From: Phytohabitans houttuyneae
GTDB lineage: Bacteria > Actinomycetota > Actinomycetes > Mycobacteriales > Micromonosporaceae
DNA: 64,000 nucleotides
Direction: 5' to 3'
Assembly: GCF_011764425.1 (NCBI RefSeq)
Contig: NZ_BLPF01000003.1
Location: forward strand, 434,001 to 498,000
Below, piece after piece: positions 56,451 through 64,000 of this stretch. Every line of letters begins with the position of its first letter. The stretch's first letter is position 1. The translations under genes and the position numbers were made by a program. The notes under the pieces were generated by a model. That model was not told the DNA's origin and searched no databases. It worked only from the letters and a program-made list of their open reading frames with translations.

Positions 56451-57562
56451 TCACGGCGGGACGCCTCCGTTCCTTCTCCGCTGTGGATCGGACCAGGCCT
56501 GGTAGAGCGTCAGGTGGCGGCGGGCCGCTTCGGCCCAGGTGTGCCGGGCCGCCACCTGGTGACCGGCCGCTCTCCGGGCCGGGTCGTTGCGGGTCAGAGC
56601 GGTCGCGAGCGCTGCGGCGAAGGCGGGGCGTCGGTGGCGAATCGAACCGCCGGGCCGAAGACCTCGCGTAGCACCGGTAGGTCGCGCGCGACCACGGGTA
56701 CGCCAGCGGCCAGGGCCTCCATGGCGGCCAGGCCGAAGCCTTCCTTGAGGGAGGGGAACGCGAACGCGGCGGCGGCAGCGACCAGTGGCGGCATGTCTTC
56801 CTCGGGGACCGCGCCGAGCACGACCGGTTCGACGCCCAGGTCGGCGGCGCGCTTCTCCCATCTGGCGCGGTAGTCGCGGTAGTCGAACAGCGTCTCGCCG
56901 CCGGCGATGACCAGCTGTACGTCGGGCACGTCGCGACGTAGCAGGGCGTACGCGTCGAGCAGGTCGAGTGATCCCTTGCGTGGCTCGATGCCGCCGACGC
57001 TGAGCAGGTAGCGCCCGAGCCGTGTTCGCCACTTCGCCCGTGCCGCCGGGTCGGTGGTGGTGAAGCGTTCGTAGTCGACGCCGTTGGGGATGACCTCGGC
57101 GGTGATGCCCCAGCCGTCGGCGAGCTCCTTCGCCACGGCGGTCGAGACGCAGATGTGCGCGTGCGGCTCGGTGATGGCCTTTTCGTGACAGGCGACCAGC
57201 TCCGGTGTCGTGAACTGGTCGATGTGGTGGACGGTGCGGATGCAGGGCGCCGCCGCGTTGGCGCTGATGCAGTCCTGGGCGTGCACGATGTCGTAGGCCC
57301 GCGGGTCGAAGGCGTCGCGCAGGACGGCGATCGAGCGCAGGATCCGGTCGCCAACGGTCTCGCCGGACGGGCCGTCCGGAAACGGCACGACCTGCAGCCG
57401 TACCAGCGGGTCGACAGGGCGGAAGAACCCGCGGTCGTCGCCCCGGCCGAGGGTCCACACGGTGACGTCCTGTCCCACGGTGGCCAGTGCCTCGGCGAGG
57501 GCGAGCGTGTGCACGACGCCGCCGCGTGGCCTCGTCGAGTAGGTCAGCAGCGCGATCTTCAC
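56451..57562 (-). CDS. MSMEG_0565-family glycosyltransferase (GT4 type), frameshifted
   Basis: A GT-B glycosyltransferase of about 370 residues starting VKIALLTYSTRPRGGVVHTL, with HAQDCISANAA, EVIPNGVDYERFTTTDPAAR, LLSVGGIEPRKGSLDLLDAY and the donor-binding FPSLKEGFGLAAMEALAAG. MSMEG_0565-type enzymes are a regular part of Nit1C clusters; acceptor and sugar are unknown. The GTG at 57562 overlaps the nitrilase stop (GTGA). The frame breaks at the G-run 56625-56628; one added base restores ATDAPAFAAALATALTRNDP to the stop at 56451. Confidence 0.83.
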
Positions 57563-58392
57563 GGCGAGCCGCGGTACGCGTCGAACCGGAGCTCGTCGAG
57601 GTGGTGCAGGACGCGACGGGCGCGTTCGACTTCGGCGGCGACGTCGATGTCGGCGACGGCGAGGCCAGCCTTGCCGAAGGTGCGGGCGAGGATGTCGCCG
57701 CCAGGACCCACCACTTTGGACTGCCCGAGAAAGCGCATACCTCCCATGGCGCCGGTCTGGTTCGCCGACGCGAGCACGACCTGGTTTTCGGCGGCGCGGG
57801 CCTGGTCGTACAGGTCGAACAGCCGGGACTGGCGGTCCTGGCGGGTTCGGGGTGCGCGGTTGGTGATGCTGGTCGGCCACGCGGACAGGCAGGCGAGGAT
57901 GTGGGCGCCGCCGAGGGCGAGGCTGCGAGCGGCTTCGGGAAAGGTCTTGTCGTAGTCGATGAGCATGCCGACACGGCCGACCGGGGTGTCGAAGGCGTCG
58001 AAGGTGTCGCCGGGCATGTACGCGGCGACCTCGCCGGCGGGGAGGTGGACCTTGCGGTGTCGGCCGAGGACACCGTCGCCGTTGACGCAGACGGCGGCGT
58101 TGTAGCGGAGGTTGCCGTCGGCCTCGCAGTATCCAAAGCAGACGGTCATCTCGGCGGCGCGGCGTGCGACCTGGAAGATGAGCGGGTCGTCCGGCTTGAG
58201 CGCGGGCGGCAACGCCTCGGGGTCCGGGTGGCGCAGATCCGCGAGATAGCCTCCCAGAGCGGCATCGGGCAGCACGAGCAGTCCGGCGCCCTGGCCGCGC
58301 GCGTCCTCGATTATCTTGCCGATCCTGGCCAGGTCGAAGTCGAGGTCGCGACCGAAGTGGGCGGCGGCGGCCGCGATCCGGACCATATTCAT
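57559..58392 (-). CDS. Nitrilase-superfamily protein lacking the catalytic Cys (probable pseudoenzyme)
   Basis: The 277-residue protein has the carbon-nitrogen hydrolase fold and aligns end to end with the neighbour at 58389. The triad is altered: the Glu site reads LLVLPDAALGGYL (Asp for Glu), the Lys is kept in LGRHRKVHLPAG, and the Cys site reads VGMLIDYDKTFPEAARSLAL (Asp for Cys). It therefore should not form the thioimidate intermediate of nitrilases. It may be a non-catalytic partner of the intact paralogue. The ATG at 58392 overlaps the paralogue stop. The sequence shows no frameshift, so decay by indel is not the reason. Confidence 0.85.
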   Translation of the reverse strand: MNMVRIAAAAAHFGRDLDFDLARIGKIIEDARGQGAGLLVLPDAALGGYLADLRHPDPEALPPALKPDDPLIFQVARRAAEMTVCFGYCEADGNLRYNAAVCVNGDGVLGRHRKVHLPAGEVAAYMPGDTFDAFDTPVGRVGMLIDYDKTFPEAARSLALGGAHILACLSAWPTSITNRAPRTRQDRQSRLFDLYDQARAAENQVVLASANQTGAMGGMRFLGQSKVVGPGGDILARTFGKAGLAVADIDVAAEVERARRVLHHLDELRFDAYRGSP

Positions 58393-59239
58393 GCGCTGAA
58401 GGCTCCCGCCGGGTACGTGTACGCCTCCGGGCGCCGGTCGCGCAGGTGAGCCATCGAGCGGCGCGCGGTCCGCAACACCTCGGCCACATCGAGGTCGGCG
58501 ACGGCCATGCCGGCGGTCACGCCGGTGTCGGCGAGGACCTCGCCGCCCGGGTCGACGACCTTGGCGCTACCGACGAACCGGAGCGATCCGAAGGACCCGG
58601 ACTGGTTGGCGGACAGCCACACGATCTGGTTTTCGAGTGCCCGCGCCCGGTCGAAGAGGTCGAAACGGCGCTTCCACCGATCCTCGGCCAGGTCGGCGGC
58701 GGGACTGGTACGCGAGCCGGGCCAGGCGGACACACAGACGCCGATCTGCGCCCCGTCGAGGGCCAGCGCCCGCGCCGACTCGGGAAACGCCTTGTCGTAG
58801 CAGATCATCATGCCCAGCCGGCCGACCGGGGTGTCGAAAGCGCGGAACCGGTCGCCGGAGGAGTAGCTGGCGTCCTCGCGCAGCGGCTGGTGGACCTTGC
58901 GATGGTTGCCCAGCACACCGTCGCCGTTCACACAGACCACGCTGTTGTACCGGGTGTCGCCGTCCGCTTCGCAGTAGCCCGCGACCACGACCATCTCGCC
59001 GGCGAGCGCGGCCAGGCGGCGGATCTGTGGGCCGTCCGCGGCCAACGGGGCGGCCCCGCGTCCTGGTCGCTGTCGCCGTCGAGGCTGAGCAGATAGCCGC
59101 CCAGGCACGCCTCGGGAAGGGCGAGCAGCCGGACGCCCTCGGCGCGGGCCGTGGTGATGAGCCGTTCGACGGTGCGGAAGTCGTGTTCGAGGTCGCGGCC
59201 GAACTGCTCGGCGACGGCGGCAATCCGTAGCCTGCTCAT
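58389..59239 (-). CDS. Carbon-nitrogen hydrolase (nitrilase superfamily), catalytic, frameshifted
   Basis: All three catalytic residues are present: Glu in LLALPEACLGGYLL, Lys in LGNHRKVHQPLRED, Cys in LGMMICYDKAFPESARALAL. It starts MSRLRIAAVAEQFGRDLEHD at the ATG at 59239, overlapping the stop of the GNAT-AIR synthase gene. Length about 283 residues. The frame breaks at the C-run 59054-59057; adding one base restores DQDAGAAPLAADGPQIRRLA. In Nit1C clusters the nitrilase is the key enzyme, implicated in nitrile or cyanide nitrogen use. Confidence 0.85.
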
Positions 59240-60627
59240 GCTCTCCCCATTCCGGTGACGACGCCGGTGAGGGCCTGCGTGACCTCTCCGTCCGGCCAGC
59301 GCAGGCCGACCCCCTCGCCGTGGGTCAGCTCGCCGCAGAGTGCGCTGACCGCCGGCGCGGCGGGCGGTGCGGGCCGTCCCGGCATGTCGGCGGAGACGAC
59401 GGCGTACCCGGGAAAGCAGGTCAGCCAGTCGCCGGCGTTGGCGTCGTGTGGACGCGGGACGGCGGCCACGTCGAGCACGGCCGCGCAGCCGCTCGCCTCG
59501 GCCAGCATGCCCAGCGTTCCCACGATGCCGGCCATCGAGACGTCCTTTGCCGCGGCCGGTCGGTTGGCGGCTACGGCCCCAGTCATCGCGCGGAGCTCGT
59601 CGGCGCGGCGCCCGGTGGTCGAGTCCCACTGGCGACCGTGGTAGCCGGGCCGCCATGCTCCAGCCAGGTCGGCCGTGAGGCGGATCCGGTGGCCGGGTCG
59701 GCCTCCGCCGCCGGGTACCGGGTGTCCGGTCCGCCCGAGGGCGGTGACGGCCAGTGCCGCCGGTACCCCGAGTTGGGTGTGCCCGCCGAGGATCGGAGTG
59801 CCGTATGCGGCCGCGGCGTGGCGCAGCCCGGCCAGGACCCGGGCGGCGTGGGAGGCGTCGCGGGCGGCGAGCGCGTCGAGCAGTCCGATCGGGGTGGCAC
59901 CCATCGCCGCAAGGTCGTTGACGTTGACCAGGACCGCGCACCAACCGGCCCATTCGGGGTCACGCTCCACCATGGACGGGAGGATCGCGTCGCAGGCGGC
60001 GATCACGTCGCTGCCGGGCACCGGTGCGCCGTCGTCGCCGACGAACCCGGCACCGCCCGGCGACAGCTGCGACAGCAGTGGCCCGAGCGCCGACTTGGTC
60101 GCGTCCACCTGGGCGCTGACCCGGCGGATCGGCCATCGCATCAGCGTGTGCGGGGTGTCCGCGACGCTGACCGGGCGTACAGGTGCCCAGCCGAGCCGCT
60201 GGAACATCGGCTCGTTGCGGGTCTGTACGGTCGCCTCGAAGCGCAGCACGCCCTCTGACTCGGCGCGGGCGCAGGCGGCCCTGACCAGGGCCGCGCCGAT
60301 ACCACGCGGGCCGCGAGCCGCGTGGGCGACGGCCAGGCGGCCACCGTTCCACCAGCCGATGTCCGGGCCGCTGTCGACCGGTCCGAGCCGCACACCGCCG
60401 AGGACCGCGCCGCTCGGGTCGCGGGCGACCAGGACGATGGTGCGCGGGTCCTCATCGCGGTCGTCCCGGTCGTGGGCGTCGAAGAGGCGCTGCTCGTCGA
60501 CGAACACGTCGCGGCGCAGCCGGTGGTAGGCATCCAGCACGGCTGCGCCGTCCGCCTCCTCGATCTGAAACGCGGGCTGCCGCGCGAGCGTGCTGCGGTC
60601 GCCGAGCAGCAGGAGGATGTCGTTCAC
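59236..60627 (-). CDS. MSMEG_0567/Sll0787 family protein: GNAT acetyltransferase fused to AIR-synthase-like domain
   Basis: The first about 170 residues are a GNAT fold (YHRLRRDVFVDEQRLFD, NGGRLAVAHAARGPRGIGAA as the acyl-CoA pyrophosphate loop, ATVQTRNEPMFQRLGWAPVR). The rest, to residue 463, is a PurM-like AIR synthase domain (VLVNVNDLAAMGATPIGLLD, GTPILGGHTQLGV, AAAKDVSMAGIVGTLGMLAE). The fusion is normal for this family and is found in Nit1C clusters of cyanobacteria and actinobacteria. Reaction unknown. The GTG at 60627 is four bases after the radical SAM stop. Confidence 0.88.
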   Translation of the reverse strand: MNDILLLLGDRSTLARQPAFQIEEADGAAVLDAYHRLRRDVFVDEQRLFDAHDRDDRDEDPRTIVLVARDPSGAVLGGVRLGPVDSGPDIGWWNGGRLAVAHAARGPRGIGAALVRAACARAESEGVLRFEATVQTRNEPMFQRLGWAPVRPVSVADTPHTLMRWPIRRVSAQVDATKSALGPLLSQLSPGGAGFVGDDGAPVPGSDVIAACDAILPSMVERDPEWAGWCAVLVNVNDLAAMGATPIGLLDALAARDASHAARVLAGLRHAAAAYGTPILGGHTQLGVPAALAVTALGRTGHPVPGGGGRPGHRIRLTADLAGAWRPGYHGRQWDSTTGRRADELRAMTGAVAANRPAAAKDVSMAGIVGTLGMLAEASGCAAVLDVAAVPRPHDANAGDWLTCFPGYAVVSADMPGRPAPPAAPAVSALCGELTHGEGVGLRWPDGEVTQALTGVVTGMGRA

Positions 60628-60631
60628 CGTC

Positions 60632-61711
60632 TCAGCCGCCCGCGGCGGGCAGCACGCTGCAGGCGCCGCAGGCCGCGCACCCGGCTTGCTGGTCGGCGCC
60701 AGACATGCCCGCGGCGCGGAGCATGGCGCCGACCCGTGCGGTGATGTGCGCGAGCAGCCGCGGGTCGGGTGCGCGGACACCGTCGCGGCCGGCCAGGGTG
60801 CCGCGCATCGGACGGAATGGCACCACGAACGGGTAGACGCCGCGGTCGATCAGCCCGCCGGCGCCGGCGACGAGCTCGTCCGGGTCTTCGCCGAGCCCCA
60901 CGAGGAGGTACGTGGAGACGCGGTTGCGCCCGAACACGCGCACCGCCTCGTCCCACGCCGCCTCGTACTCGTCGATGGCAACCGTGGCTTTGCCGGGCAT
61001 CCACCGGCGCCGCACCGCCTCGTCGAGGGACTCGACGTGGATGCCGATCGCAGTGGCACCGGCCGCGTGCAGCTCGCCGATCCAGCCGAGGTCGGTCGGC
61101 GGCTCGCACTGGACCTGGATGGGCAGCCCGGGCACAGCCGCCAGGACCGCTCGGACCGACCGGGCAAGCGCGCGGGCCCCGCGGTCCGGCCCGGTGGTGG
61201 TGCCGGTGGTCATCACCATCTGCCGCACGCCGTCCAGCCGCACCGCCGCCTCGGCCACCTCCGCGAGTTGGGCGGGCGTCTTGGCGGCCACGGTGGCACC
61301 GGAGCGCAGCGACTCCTCGATGGTGCAGAAACGGCACCGGTCCGGCTCGGCGTACCGGACGCAGGTCTGCACGACGGTGGTGGCGAGGACGTCGGCGCCG
61401 TGCAGTCGGGCGATCTGCTCGTAGGGCACACCGTCCGCGGTGGTCAGGTCGTAGAACCTGGGCCGGCGGACGGGAGTCAGGGTGAGGCCGATGTCGTCGT
61501 CGCCGAGCCAGACCCTGCCGTCACGAACGGTGTACGGGCTCGCCGGGTTGGTGGGCAGCGCGGCGTTGGCGCCGTCGATGAGGACGTGGTCGTCGCCGCT
61601 CGGCCCGGCGCCGTCCGGCCTGCGCAGCGTGTCCGCACGGACCCCGTGCAGAGCGAGCTCGGCGCGGGTCATGATCCGCACAGCCACCGTCGTGTCGGCG
61701 CCAACGCTCAC
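60632..61711 (-). CDS. MSMEG_0568 family radical SAM protein
   Basis: The 359-residue protein has the cluster-binding motif TCVRYAEPDRCRFCTIEESL, which is C-x8-C-x2-C instead of the usual C-x3-C-x2-C, as is known for this family. The barrel contains MVMTTGTTTGPDRGARALAR and IQVQCEPPTDLGWI, and LLVGLGEDPDELVAGAG. A C-terminal GCAACGACS (three Cys spaced by two) may bind an auxiliary cluster. It would carry out a radical step in the Nit1C pathway. Start GTG at 61711. Confidence 0.9.
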   Translation of the reverse strand: MSVGADTTVAVRIMTRAELALHGVRADTLRRPDGAGPSGDDHVLIDGANAALPTNPASPYTVRDGRVWLGDDDIGLTLTPVRRPRFYDLTTADGVPYEQIARLHGADVLATTVVQTCVRYAEPDRCRFCTIEESLRSGATVAAKTPAQLAEVAEAAVRLDGVRQMVMTTGTTTGPDRGARALARSVRAVLAAVPGLPIQVQCEPPTDLGWIGELHAAGATAIGIHVESLDEAVRRRWMPGKATVAIDEYEAAWDEAVRVFGRNRVSTYLLVGLGEDPDELVAGAGGLIDRGVYPFVVPFRPMRGTLAGRDGVRAPDPRLLAHITARVGAMLRAAGMSGADQQAGCAACGACSVLPAAGG

Positions 61712-61722
61712 AGCCGCCCCCT

Positions 61723-62238
61723 CTACAGCTGGTAGGTGGAGTTGATGATGGCGCCCTTGCGGGCGTAGTGGATGATCGCGTCCTGGACGTCGAGTGGGTG
61801 GGTCGGGATGACGCCCTCGATGAGGTCCTCCTCGCGGGCCCCGTGCAGCGAGAGGCCGAAACGGCAGCAGTACACCTTGCCGCCCTCGGCCAGGAACGTC
61901 TTGAGCTGGTTGTTGATGTTGTGCTCGCCGGGGAACGCGGAGTTGCCCGTGGTCGGGAAGCCCCGGGTGGCCAGGCAGTTCAGCGAGCCAGGTCCGTAGA
62001 AGTAGATGGCCGCCTCGAAGCCCTTGCGCAGCGCGCGGGTGGCCTGCAGCACGGCCACGAAGCTGACGGACGACTCGTGCGCGATGCCGTGCACGAGGGT
62101 GAAGTACGCCTCGCCGTTCTCGGCCTTGTAGTCGGGAAACACCTTGGTGCTGCCGTAGATGCTGGAGCCCTCGGGCAGCGACGGGTGCGGGATCTCCGCG
62201 AGGCTCTGGCTCTCCAGCTCGCTCAGGTCGACGGTCAT
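61723..62238 (-). CDS. MSMEG_0572/Sll0783 family nitrogen-starvation-response protein
   Basis: A 171-residue DsrE-fold-like protein: TVDLSELESQSLAEIPHPSL, YFTLVHGIAHESSVSFVAVL, AAIYFYGPGSLNCLATRGFP and KVYCCRFGLSLHGAREEDLI. In the cyanobacterium Synechocystis the homologue Sll0783 is strongly induced on nitrogen starvation. Several cysteines are conserved in family style. It lies 11 bases before the radical SAM gene in the same operon. Confidence 0.9.
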   Translation of the reverse strand: MTVDLSELESQSLAEIPHPSLPEGSSIYGSTKVFPDYKAENGEAYFTLVHGIAHESSVSFVAVLQATRALRKGFEAAIYFYGPGSLNCLATRGFPTTGNSAFPGEHNINNQLKTFLAEGGKVYCCRFGLSLHGAREEDLIEGVIPTHPLDVQDAIIHYARKGAIINSTYQL

Positions 62239-62261: not shown

Positions 62262-63077
62262 CTATCGGTACAGGGCGGAAAAGTTCTCCCGGAAGATCAG
62301 GTCTGCCAGGTCGCCGTCACCGGTGGCGGCGACCATCCGGGCGTACTCACCGGCGTGGTCGCCCCACGGCTGGTCACTGGCGAACAGCACCCGGTCGTGG
62401 CCGACGCCGCGGCGCTCGATCTCGCGGGCCAGCCAGTACGGGGTGAAGCCGATGGCCCACGACAGGTCGGTGTAGACGCGCTTGCCGGCCGCGATCCAGT
62501 CGAAGAAGCGGGAACCGGCCAGCTTGATGTGCCCGCTCATCCCGCCGCCGAAGTGGACCAGGTGGATCGCGGCCCGGTCGGCGTACCAGTCGACCAGGTG
62601 GCCGACCTCGTCGATGTCCGACGCGGCGCCCGGCGACGTGTGGACGTGCACGACCAGGTCGAAACGTTCGGCCGTACCGAAGATCTGGTCCAGCAGAGGG
62701 CGGCAGGCCGGGTCGGTCGCCCGGCCGCCAAGCAGGAAGCTCACCTTCAGCGCTCGCACACCACGTTCTCCCGCCAGCGCGAGGGCGGCCATGGTGCGCC
62801 GCTCGTCGTCCGGTCGAGGCGAAACCCACAGACCGGCGCGGATGCGCTCGTCCGTCTGGGCCGCTTCGACGACCAACTCGTTGAAGGAGAAGGCGACCGC
62901 GGGGTCTGGCACACCGTAGTTGGGCAGCACCAACGCCCGCTCGGTGCGCTCGGCGTCCAGATCGGCCAGGAGCTGCTTGACCGTGGCGCGTGCGGTCGTG
63001 TCGGGCTTGACCGGTGGACCGCCGTAGAACGGGTACGCCGGCAGCACACCGATATGGCGGTGAGCGTCAAAGACCAT
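62262..63077 (-). CDS. Amidohydrolase family protein of the Nit1C cluster
   Basis: The 271-residue metal-dependent hydrolase starts MVFDAHRHIGVLPAYPFYGG (HxH metal motif), and has VHVHTSPGAASDIDEVGHLV (His), AIHLVHFGGGMSGHIKLAG (His) and the late metal Asp in VLFASDQPWGDHAGEYARMV, as in the amidohydrolase_2/TIM-barrel group. It may hydrolyse an amide or decarboxylate a ring acid made by other enzymes of the cluster. The start at 63077 places the HxH motif at residue 5, as in the family. Confidence 0.85.
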   Translation of the reverse strand: MVFDAHRHIGVLPAYPFYGGPPVKPDTTARATVKQLLADLDAERTERALVLPNYGVPDPAVAFSFNELVVEAAQTDERIRAGLWVSPRPDDERRTMAALALAGERGVRALKVSFLLGGRATDPACRPLLDQIFGTAERFDLVVHVHTSPGAASDIDEVGHLVDWYADRAAIHLVHFGGGMSGHIKLAGSRFFDWIAAGKRVYTDLSWAIGFTPYWLAREIERRGVGHDRVLFASDQPWGDHAGEYARMVAATGDGDLADLIFRENFSALYR

Positions 63078-63091
63078 CGCGTGGACCCCCT

Positions 63092-64000
63092 TCACCCGAC
63101 CGGCAGTGCGACGCCCAGCGTCGCCGGCGCACCGGTGAGGACCCCGCACACGTCGGCGAGGCGCCGGGACGCGTCGACGTGGTCGGCCAGAAACTCGGCG
63201 TCGCGCCCGACCGCTTCGAACCGGCCCGAACCCCAGCTGTGCTGCCACGGCAGGCCGAGGAAGTAGAGGCCCGGGCAGCTCGTCACGCCCCGCCAGTGCA
63301 TCGGATAGCCGCGCCCGTCGAACACCGGGACGCCGATCCAGCCATGGTCACGGGTGAAGCCGGTGGACCAGATCACCGACGCGATCCCGGCCGACCGTGT
63401 GTCCACGGTGGATGGTTGGCTGTCGTCGGGTTCCCACACCGGCACGTACCGCGCCTCGGTGGGTGCCTCGATCCCGCGCGCCGCGATGTAGGCGTCGATG
63501 CTGTCCTTGATGCTCTCGGCCACCGCGTCGGCACGGTCGAGGTTGGCCTTCAGGTCACCGGCGAACGCGAGCGTCGAGCCGTGCACGTCCACCAGGCGCC
63601 CGTACAGCCGCATCCCATCTTTGGCGAACGCTCGCAGGTCGATGTCGCGGCCGCCGTCCCGGCCGGTGACGTAGTGGTTGACCCGCAGCCGGACCGCGTC
63701 CGCGTCGGAGAACTCGTCGATCCCCTTGGCGTAGTGGCCCATGTCGTCCAGCCAGGCGACACAGTCGCGGCCACGGTAGAACCGCGCCACCCGCGGTGCG
63801 CCGCCGACAGCCAGGTGCACCTGCCGTCCCGCCAGATGCAGGTCCTCGGCGATCTGGCATCCCGACTGGCCGGTCCCGACGACCAGCACCGCGCCGTCGG
63901 GCAACTGCTCCGGACTTTGGTACTGGCAGGAGTGGATCTGGATCACATCACCGCGGAGCCGTTCCGCCATACGCGGAACCGACGGCGAGTGGTACGGTCC
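63092..64000 (-). CDS. MSMEG_0569 family flavin-dependent oxidoreductase (5' end off window)
   Basis: The visible 302 C-terminal residues contain the second dinucleotide-binding motif VLVVGTGQSGCQIAEDLHLA, the Baeyer-Villiger/FMO-like ASVIWSTGFTRDHGWIGVPV, and GLYFLGLPWQHSWGSGRFEA near the end. This matches the FAD-dependent monooxygenase-like MSMEG_0569 family of Nit1C clusters. The FAD-binding N-terminus lies beyond the right edge; the frame is open to base 64000. It is the first gene of the operon visible here, 14 bases before the amidohydrolase. Confidence 0.87.
   Translation of the reverse strand, partial: GPYHSPSVPRMAERLRGDVIQIHSCQYQSPEQLPDGAVLVVGTGQSGCQIAEDLHLAGRQVHLAVGGAPRVARFYRGRDCVAWLDDMGHYAKGIDEFSDADAVRLRVNHYVTGRDGGRDIDLRAFAKDGMRLYGRLVDVHGSTLAFAGDLKANLDRADAVAESIKDSIDAYIAARGIEAPTEARYVPVWEPDDSQPSTVDTRSAGIASVIWSTGFTRDHGWIGVPVFDGRGYPMHWRGVTSCPGLYFLGLPWQHSWGSGRFEAVGRDAEFLADHVDASRRLADVCGVLTGAPATLGVALPVG

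Follow-up and report, generated by a model that had tools for sequence, protein, structure and literature searches.

The closest described relatives of the locus studied here are the Nit1C gene clusters, which were analysed by Podar and colleagues (PMC1199592) and which, with NitC as the nitrilase, have been tied to cyanide assimilation in Pseudomonas (PMC11049912). The gpr operon (MSMEG_0565-0572) of Mycobacterium smegmatis was described as switched on by nitrogen starvation, with GlnR required for this, and starved cells from which it had been deleted were sensitive to peroxide (PMC6039565). PMC4617892 and PMC4222082 list MSMEG_0566 as an aliphatic amidase, and PMC4222082 lists MSMEG_0571 as a carbon-nitrogen hydrolase. 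At the level of single proteins, the point of comparison is the N-carbamoylputrescine amidase-like branch of the nitrilases (PF00795; TIGR03381; structures 5h8i-l, 1j31, 3ivz, and 6ypa).

The window, i.e., the whole stretch of 64,000 nucleotides of Phytohabitans houttuyneae DNA analysed here, carries within its last 7.5 kb, on the minus strand, an eight-gene Nit1C-like cluster with the same gene set as the gpr operon. Read along this strand, it begins with the gene for an MSMEG_0569 flavin-dependent oxidoreductase (63092..64000; TIGR04046), which extends past the window end, followed by genes for an amidohydrolase of the actinomycete cluster (62262..63083; PF04909), an MSMEG_0572/Sll0783 family protein (61723..62238; TIGR04044), an MSMEG_0568 radical SAM protein (60632..61711; TIGR04043), and an MSMEG_0567 GNAT and AIR-synthase-like protein (59236..60780; TIGR04045 and TIGR04050), whose homology with relatives spans 59239-60600. 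Two nitrilase paralogues follow, one with the catalytic Cys (Cys type) and one with Asp in its place (Asp type; 57559..58392), and the cluster ends with an MSMEG_0565-family glycosyltransferase gene (56499..57559; TIGR04047). All five Nit1C-type marker profiles (TIGR04043, TIGR04045, TIGR04050, TIGR04044, and TIGR04046) were matched, the last at 434.0, below its cut-off of 498.35, its gene being cut by the window end; the Nit1C-like setting proposed from the sequence alone was thereby borne out.

The actinomycete clusters of this kind and the Nit6803-type Nit1C clusters both draw on the radical SAM, GNAT, AIR-synthase-like, flavin oxidoreductase, MSMEG_0570, and MSMEG_0572 families. One Nit6803-bearing cluster (L136) also shares an MSMEG_0565-family glycosyltransferase with the type seen in the window. 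In contrast to the Nit6803 type, the actinomycete cluster has a Cys/Asp pair from another nitrilase branch and, in the window's type, an added amidohydrolase. The Nit6803/NitC profile (TIGR04048; cut-off 502.6 bits) was matched at only 28.2 bits by the Asp type and 40.9 bits by the main piece of the Cys type. No match over this cut-off was present in the source genome (95.44% complete), and no Nit6803 gene was found beside the annotated Asp/Cys pairs of other loci.

The Asp-type gene encodes 277 amino acids on the minus strand in a single open frame, in agreement with the sequence-only reading, and translation yielded LVLPDAALGGY and MLIDYDKTF, as listed there, along with HRKVH. Where nitrilases have Glu-Lys-Glu-Cys, the protein reads Asp-Lys-Glu-Asp. 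Asp43 (codon 58264-58266) replaces the catalytic Glu, Lys114 (58051-58053) and the second Glu, Glu121 (58030-58032), are retained, and Asp146 (57955-57957) replaces the catalytic Cys. In HMMER alignments, Asp146 fell on the Cys of the ICFD motif of 1j31 and 3ivz, and Asp43 shared a column with the Glu of the LPE motif of the solved enzymes; in 6ypa, an entry titled as a C146A variant, the Asp146 column holds Ala. We take these two columns to be the catalytic Cys and Glu of the nitrilase superfamily, and the alignments to 1j31, 3ivz, and 6ypa upheld the earlier assignment of the downstream Asp to the nucleophile site. The Glu-Lys-Cys triad is thus represented by Asp-Lys-Asp in the window protein and its relatives.

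Outside these positions, the protein is a recognizable nitrilase. It scored 117.5 bits against the PF00795 (CN_hydrolase) profile, for which the cut-off is 23.2, and its predicted model (mean pLDDT, 84.6) matched nitrilase-superfamily PDB structures, the top matches listed being amidases and nitrilases with TM scores of about 0.8. A Cys-type sister from another locus (L024; pLDDT, 88.5) likewise matched structures of this superfamily. The two window proteins are 58% identical over residues 63-273 and 48% over 1-64, which confirms that they are paralogues over their whole length. Fold, length, Lys, and second Glu are common to the Asp type and the N-carbamoylputrescine amidase-like branch. In contrast to that branch, the Asp type has neither the catalytic Glu nor the Cys, and both copies remained far below the TIGR03381 cut-off (98.7 bits for the Asp type and 104.2 bits for the Cys-type main piece versus 410.25).

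The upstream Cys copy had been described as keeping Glu-Lys-Cys. Its motifs LALPEACLGGY, NHRKVHQ, and MMICYDKAF are indeed present (minus strand codons: Glu, 59111-59113; Lys, 58896-58898; Cys, 58800-58802), but they do not share one open frame. The gene is frameshifted near 59046-59048, so that an N-terminal piece bearing the Glu (59048..59239) and the main piece bearing Lys and Cys (58389..59045) lie in different frames on the minus strand; the end of the main piece overlaps the Asp-type start by 4 bases. An intact frame had been claimed for the downstream gene only. In relatives, the Cys copy is in one frame, and in a congener (G003) all three motifs are found in a single frame. The glycosyltransferase gene in the same stretch is also frameshifted, near its 3' end (56619-56635), and the other six cluster genes each align in one frame over the extent visible in the window. 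Breaks also occur in the glycosyltransferase of this stretch, in other cluster genes of few-contig assemblies of the genus (G005 and G003), and in five cluster genes of one further locus (L031); for these reasons, the break in the Cys copy is probably an assembly indel, and true pseudogenisation is the less likely cause. L031 belongs to a named Streptomyces assembly, and its five frame-broken genes are a warning for claims of gene loss made from such assemblies. Our own frame-switch detector missed both known breaks in the window and is of little use; it made 2 other calls there, compared to 6 in 974,668 bases (0.39 per 64 kb) of 80 control loci. Among 225 frames, none was common to a nitrilase-type match and a glycosyltransferase, flavin oxidoreductase, GNAT/AIR, or radical SAM gene.

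Relatives of the Asp protein were sought in one genome per species across 84,980 species, and 410 stretches were found to encode one. The best 80 of these 410 were kept, all from Actinomycetota by title. Asp occupied the nucleophile position in 80/80 of them, and identical eight genes in identical order were present in 66/80. A Cys-type sister was in view in 79/80 (split by frame breaks in L031), which answers in the affirmative the question raised earlier of whether the Asp/Asp paralogue recurs next to a catalytic copy; the only locus without it (L097) is on a metagenome contig that is missing several cluster genes. Within the family of the source organism, 21 of 200 genomes matched at 1e-60, and the number of matches was two in every one of them. 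A second family of the same order had 82 positive genomes of 301, and 80 of these showed two or three matches; the other two were one genome with a relic only (G774) and one with a single match (G798, 85% complete). Motifs were read in 19 of these 82 genomes, and an Asp-type and a Cys-type copy were present in all but the relic. The relic itself (L245, 8763-9290) is an Asp-type gene fragment beside a glycosyltransferase fragment, in a genome from which the cluster has apparently been lost. In a sample of the phylum, 9 of 396 genomes matched at 1e-40, five with an Asp type and four with only Cys-type enzymes. Among 72,556 plasmid records, 515 carried the radical SAM gene and only four, all from Rhodococcus, exceeded 60% identity to the Asp protein; the one of the four that was read, a Rhodococcus qingshengii plasmid (L135), has the Asp type.

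For residue counts, 15 fetched loci were left out as repeats of the window or of G003 or because they came from family searches. The remaining loci gave 323 nitrilase matches of at least 120 bits and at least 200 residues, limits that dropped shorter matches such as the L245 relic and a contig-edge copy of G003. The 272 distinct sequences comprised 140 Asp-type and 132 Cys-type proteins. In the former, the nucleophile position was Asp and the Lys was kept in 140/140, the second Glu was kept in 139 (Asp in 1), and the catalytic Glu position was Asp in 138 and His in 2, with the least similar pair only 53% identical. The two His-bearing proteins are encoded at L062 6001-6834 and L247 9045-9875. 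In the Cys type, which here includes stand-alone enzymes, Cys, Lys, and second Glu were each found in 132/132 and the catalytic Glu in 131, the exception being the window's own broken copy with its N-terminal piece in the other frame. The Cys-to-Asp exchange was thus found in every Asp-type copy examined, and the Asp type is better preserved than its sister enzyme. Across the 66 loci in which none of the eight genes is broken (2145 pairs), mean identity of the Asp type was 0.855, second of the eight genes after the MSMEG_0572 family (0.909) and above the radical SAM protein (0.811) and the Cys type (0.792). Median dN/dS in the same set was 0.186 for the Asp type versus 0.217 for the Cys type, and among 78 paired loci the Asp copy was more similar than the Cys copy in 97% of locus pairs. 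The two types also differ elsewhere: Arg176, Trp188, Arg191, and Trp207, invariant in 100 paired Cys types, are all changed in the Asp type, which has invariant residues of its own (Thr150, Gln188, and Leu191).

A tree was built from 71 rows (65 of 209 distinct sequences plus 6 outgroup rows), and in it the Asp type formed a single clade with support of 99/94, which indicates that it arose once. Its nearest relatives were four stand-alone Glu-Lys-Cys enzymes, at weak support (87/80), and the tree program flagged long branches. A recent duplication within one lineage was rejected, as the clade is single and deep; that the Asp type arose when the Cys copy of the cluster was duplicated in tandem is not established by these sequences. 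Because Asp is found in 140/140, the origin is single, and the protein is the second most conserved of the eight, the Asp type is selected rather than decaying. Invariance and dN/dS thus add selection to the earlier observation that the nitrilase fold is kept and the nucleophile lost, and the Asp type is a selected paralogue in which an essential catalytic residue has gone, as is typical of a pseudoenzyme.

Gene neighbours were counted in 105 loci in which the Asp-type gene was found by the letters DYD, with only the searched-for gene families visible. The next gene downstream was an MSMEG_0565-type glycosyltransferase in 103/105, at a median distance of 6 bases (maximum, 702); the two exceptions were a contig edge (L132) and the relic. 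One further Asp-type gene, which reads DHD and lies outside the 105 (L124), is likewise followed by a glycosyltransferase. Upstream, the neighbour was the Cys copy in 83 loci, the flavin oxidoreductase in 11, GNAT/AIR in 6, the MSMEG_0570 family in 3, and others in 2. Hence the steadiest neighbour of the Asp gene is the glycosyltransferase, not the Cys copy. The stop and start of the Cys and Asp genes overlapped by 4 bases in 50/79 loci, taking the start codon nearest to the match. In two genomes (G723 and G628), the copies are in separate loci: one holds MSMEG_0572 family, radical SAM, GNAT/AIR, MSMEG_0570 family, Asp-type, and glycosyltransferase genes, and in the other the Cys type lies with a second MSMEG_0572 family gene and the flavin oxidoreductase. 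The pathway is spread over two loci, with an MSMEG_0572-family gene in each, in the pairs L239/L240, L241/L242, and L243/L244; the genome with the last pair (G712) has an additional second Cys-type copy.

Eight clusters from another class of Actinomycetota (G126, G105, G921, G937, G998, G1032, G1054, and G1078) contain a single Cys type, and neither an Asp type nor an MSMEG_0565-type glycosyltransferase was found in the stretches read; that of G105 spans two contigs. In that class, 36 of 249 genomes matched the glycosyltransferase family at 1e-60, none of the eight among them. As all eight belong to the same family (f42), they may represent a single event. In a third architecture, found at 14 loci (L166-L173, L175, L176, and L265-L268), radical SAM genes occur with GNAT and/or AIR genes, with an amidohydrolase in 12/14 and the glycosyltransferase in 10/14, and no Nit6803, Cys, or Asp nitrilase was in view. 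Eight radical SAM loci (L177-L184) had no other cluster genes in view, except for an AIR gene in L181. Since the glycosyltransferase occurs in L136 and near clusters with no nitrilase in view, it does not in general need the Asp type.

The interpretation we favour, at about even chances, is that the Asp protein may be a nitrilase paralogue that lacks the thiol, has had its pocket repurposed, and acts in that branch of a Nit1C-like pathway of actinomycetes to which the glycosyltransferase belongs. In established nitrilase chemistry, there is no thioester intermediate without a thiol, and the usual hydrolysis of nitriles or amides would thus be closed to the Asp type. If the protein served only as a scaffold, its catalytic positions could vary, yet four of them are near-invariant down to 53% identity, which points to a site that binds or converts something and thus to a repurposed pocket. 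The steady link to the glycosyltransferase, together with their joint absence from the single-Cys clusters, would place the Asp type in that branch. The carboxylates of Asp43 and Asp146 around Lys114 would then bind or transform a metabolite of the pathway, most likely a substrate or product of the neighbouring glycosyltransferase, and the Cys copy would perform the C-N hydrolysis of the pathway, replacing the single Nit6803 nitrilase of other phyla. The pocket may only bind or may also catalyse, and in the latter case this reading overlaps with that of a thiol-free enzyme. Points against this interpretation are that Asp-Lys-Asp could be a structural ion-pair set and that the adjacency of genes bears on function only indirectly.

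That the Asp protein is an enzyme whose Asp-Lys-Glu-Asp site works by a new chemistry without a thiol, the changed chemistry considered in the sequence-only reading, seems unlikely to us. Lys could, for example, serve as an imine-forming residue between two carboxylates, or the site could act by direct general acid/base catalysis. The near-invariance of the four residues, a constraint above that of the cluster's radical SAM enzyme, and the altered invariant positions elsewhere in the protein all favour it; however, ligand binding alone would give an identical conservation pattern, and a precedent was not found in the open-licence literature, where our search for a Cys-less nitrilase paralogue returned no paper. 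More specifically, Asp-Lys-Glu-Asp might be the active site of nitrilase-fold enzymes of a new class, which would either prepare or process what the MSMEG_0565-type glycosyltransferase acts on; this we would likewise call improbable. Nitrilase-superfamily enzymes are oligomers, and this habit would suit a non-catalytic Asp subunit that tunes activity or specificity in a mixed oligomer or filament with the Cys copy, the heteromer suggested in the sequence-only reading; we regard this possibility as doubtful but worth weighing. The copies co-occur in 79/80 of the named loci (the best 80 of 410) and in 21/21 and 80/82 of the positive genomes of the two families, and the frequent 4-base overlap mildly supports co-assembly. 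But two genes of a shared pathway would co-occur just as well, only 83/105 loci have the Cys copy as the upstream neighbour, and the separate loci of G723 and G628 argue mildly against an obligate complex; moreover, near-invariance of Lys, Glu, and both Asp would not be required of a pure subunit. The heteromeric filament thus gained no specific support. We consider it extremely improbable that the Asp type is a duplicate in decay or that sequencing error produced its Asp codon. Frameshifts do exist in the window assembly (Cys copy and glycosyltransferase), but the Asp-type frame is intact there and under strong purifying selection among relatives, and Asp in 140/140 distinct sequences led us to reject decay or error of this codon.

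By gene position, MSMEG_0566 would correspond to the Asp type, as suggested by the gene order in L121, L122, and L135, and MSMEG_0571 to the Cys type. The probable M. smegmatis counterpart of the Asp type is listed as an aliphatic amidase in PMC6039565, PMC4617892, and PMC4222082, and the single annotated record of the pair that we read gives each of the two proteins the name "carbon-nitrogen hydrolase family protein". Such names hide the loss of the nucleophile. The Asp type, carried by many soil actinomycetes in their nitrogen-starvation cluster, appears to be functional, in a role that differs from its sister's. If it is indeed distinct, work on this GlnR-controlled, peroxide-protective operon should drop the amidase label for that gene. 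The conserved pair, with the same fold and pathway but with and without the thiol, offers a test of what a nitrilase pocket lacking its nucleophile does, at a pathway step tied to a glycosyltransferase. If the thiol-free active site proves true, it would be a new enzyme class in a widespread nitrogen-starvation pathway.
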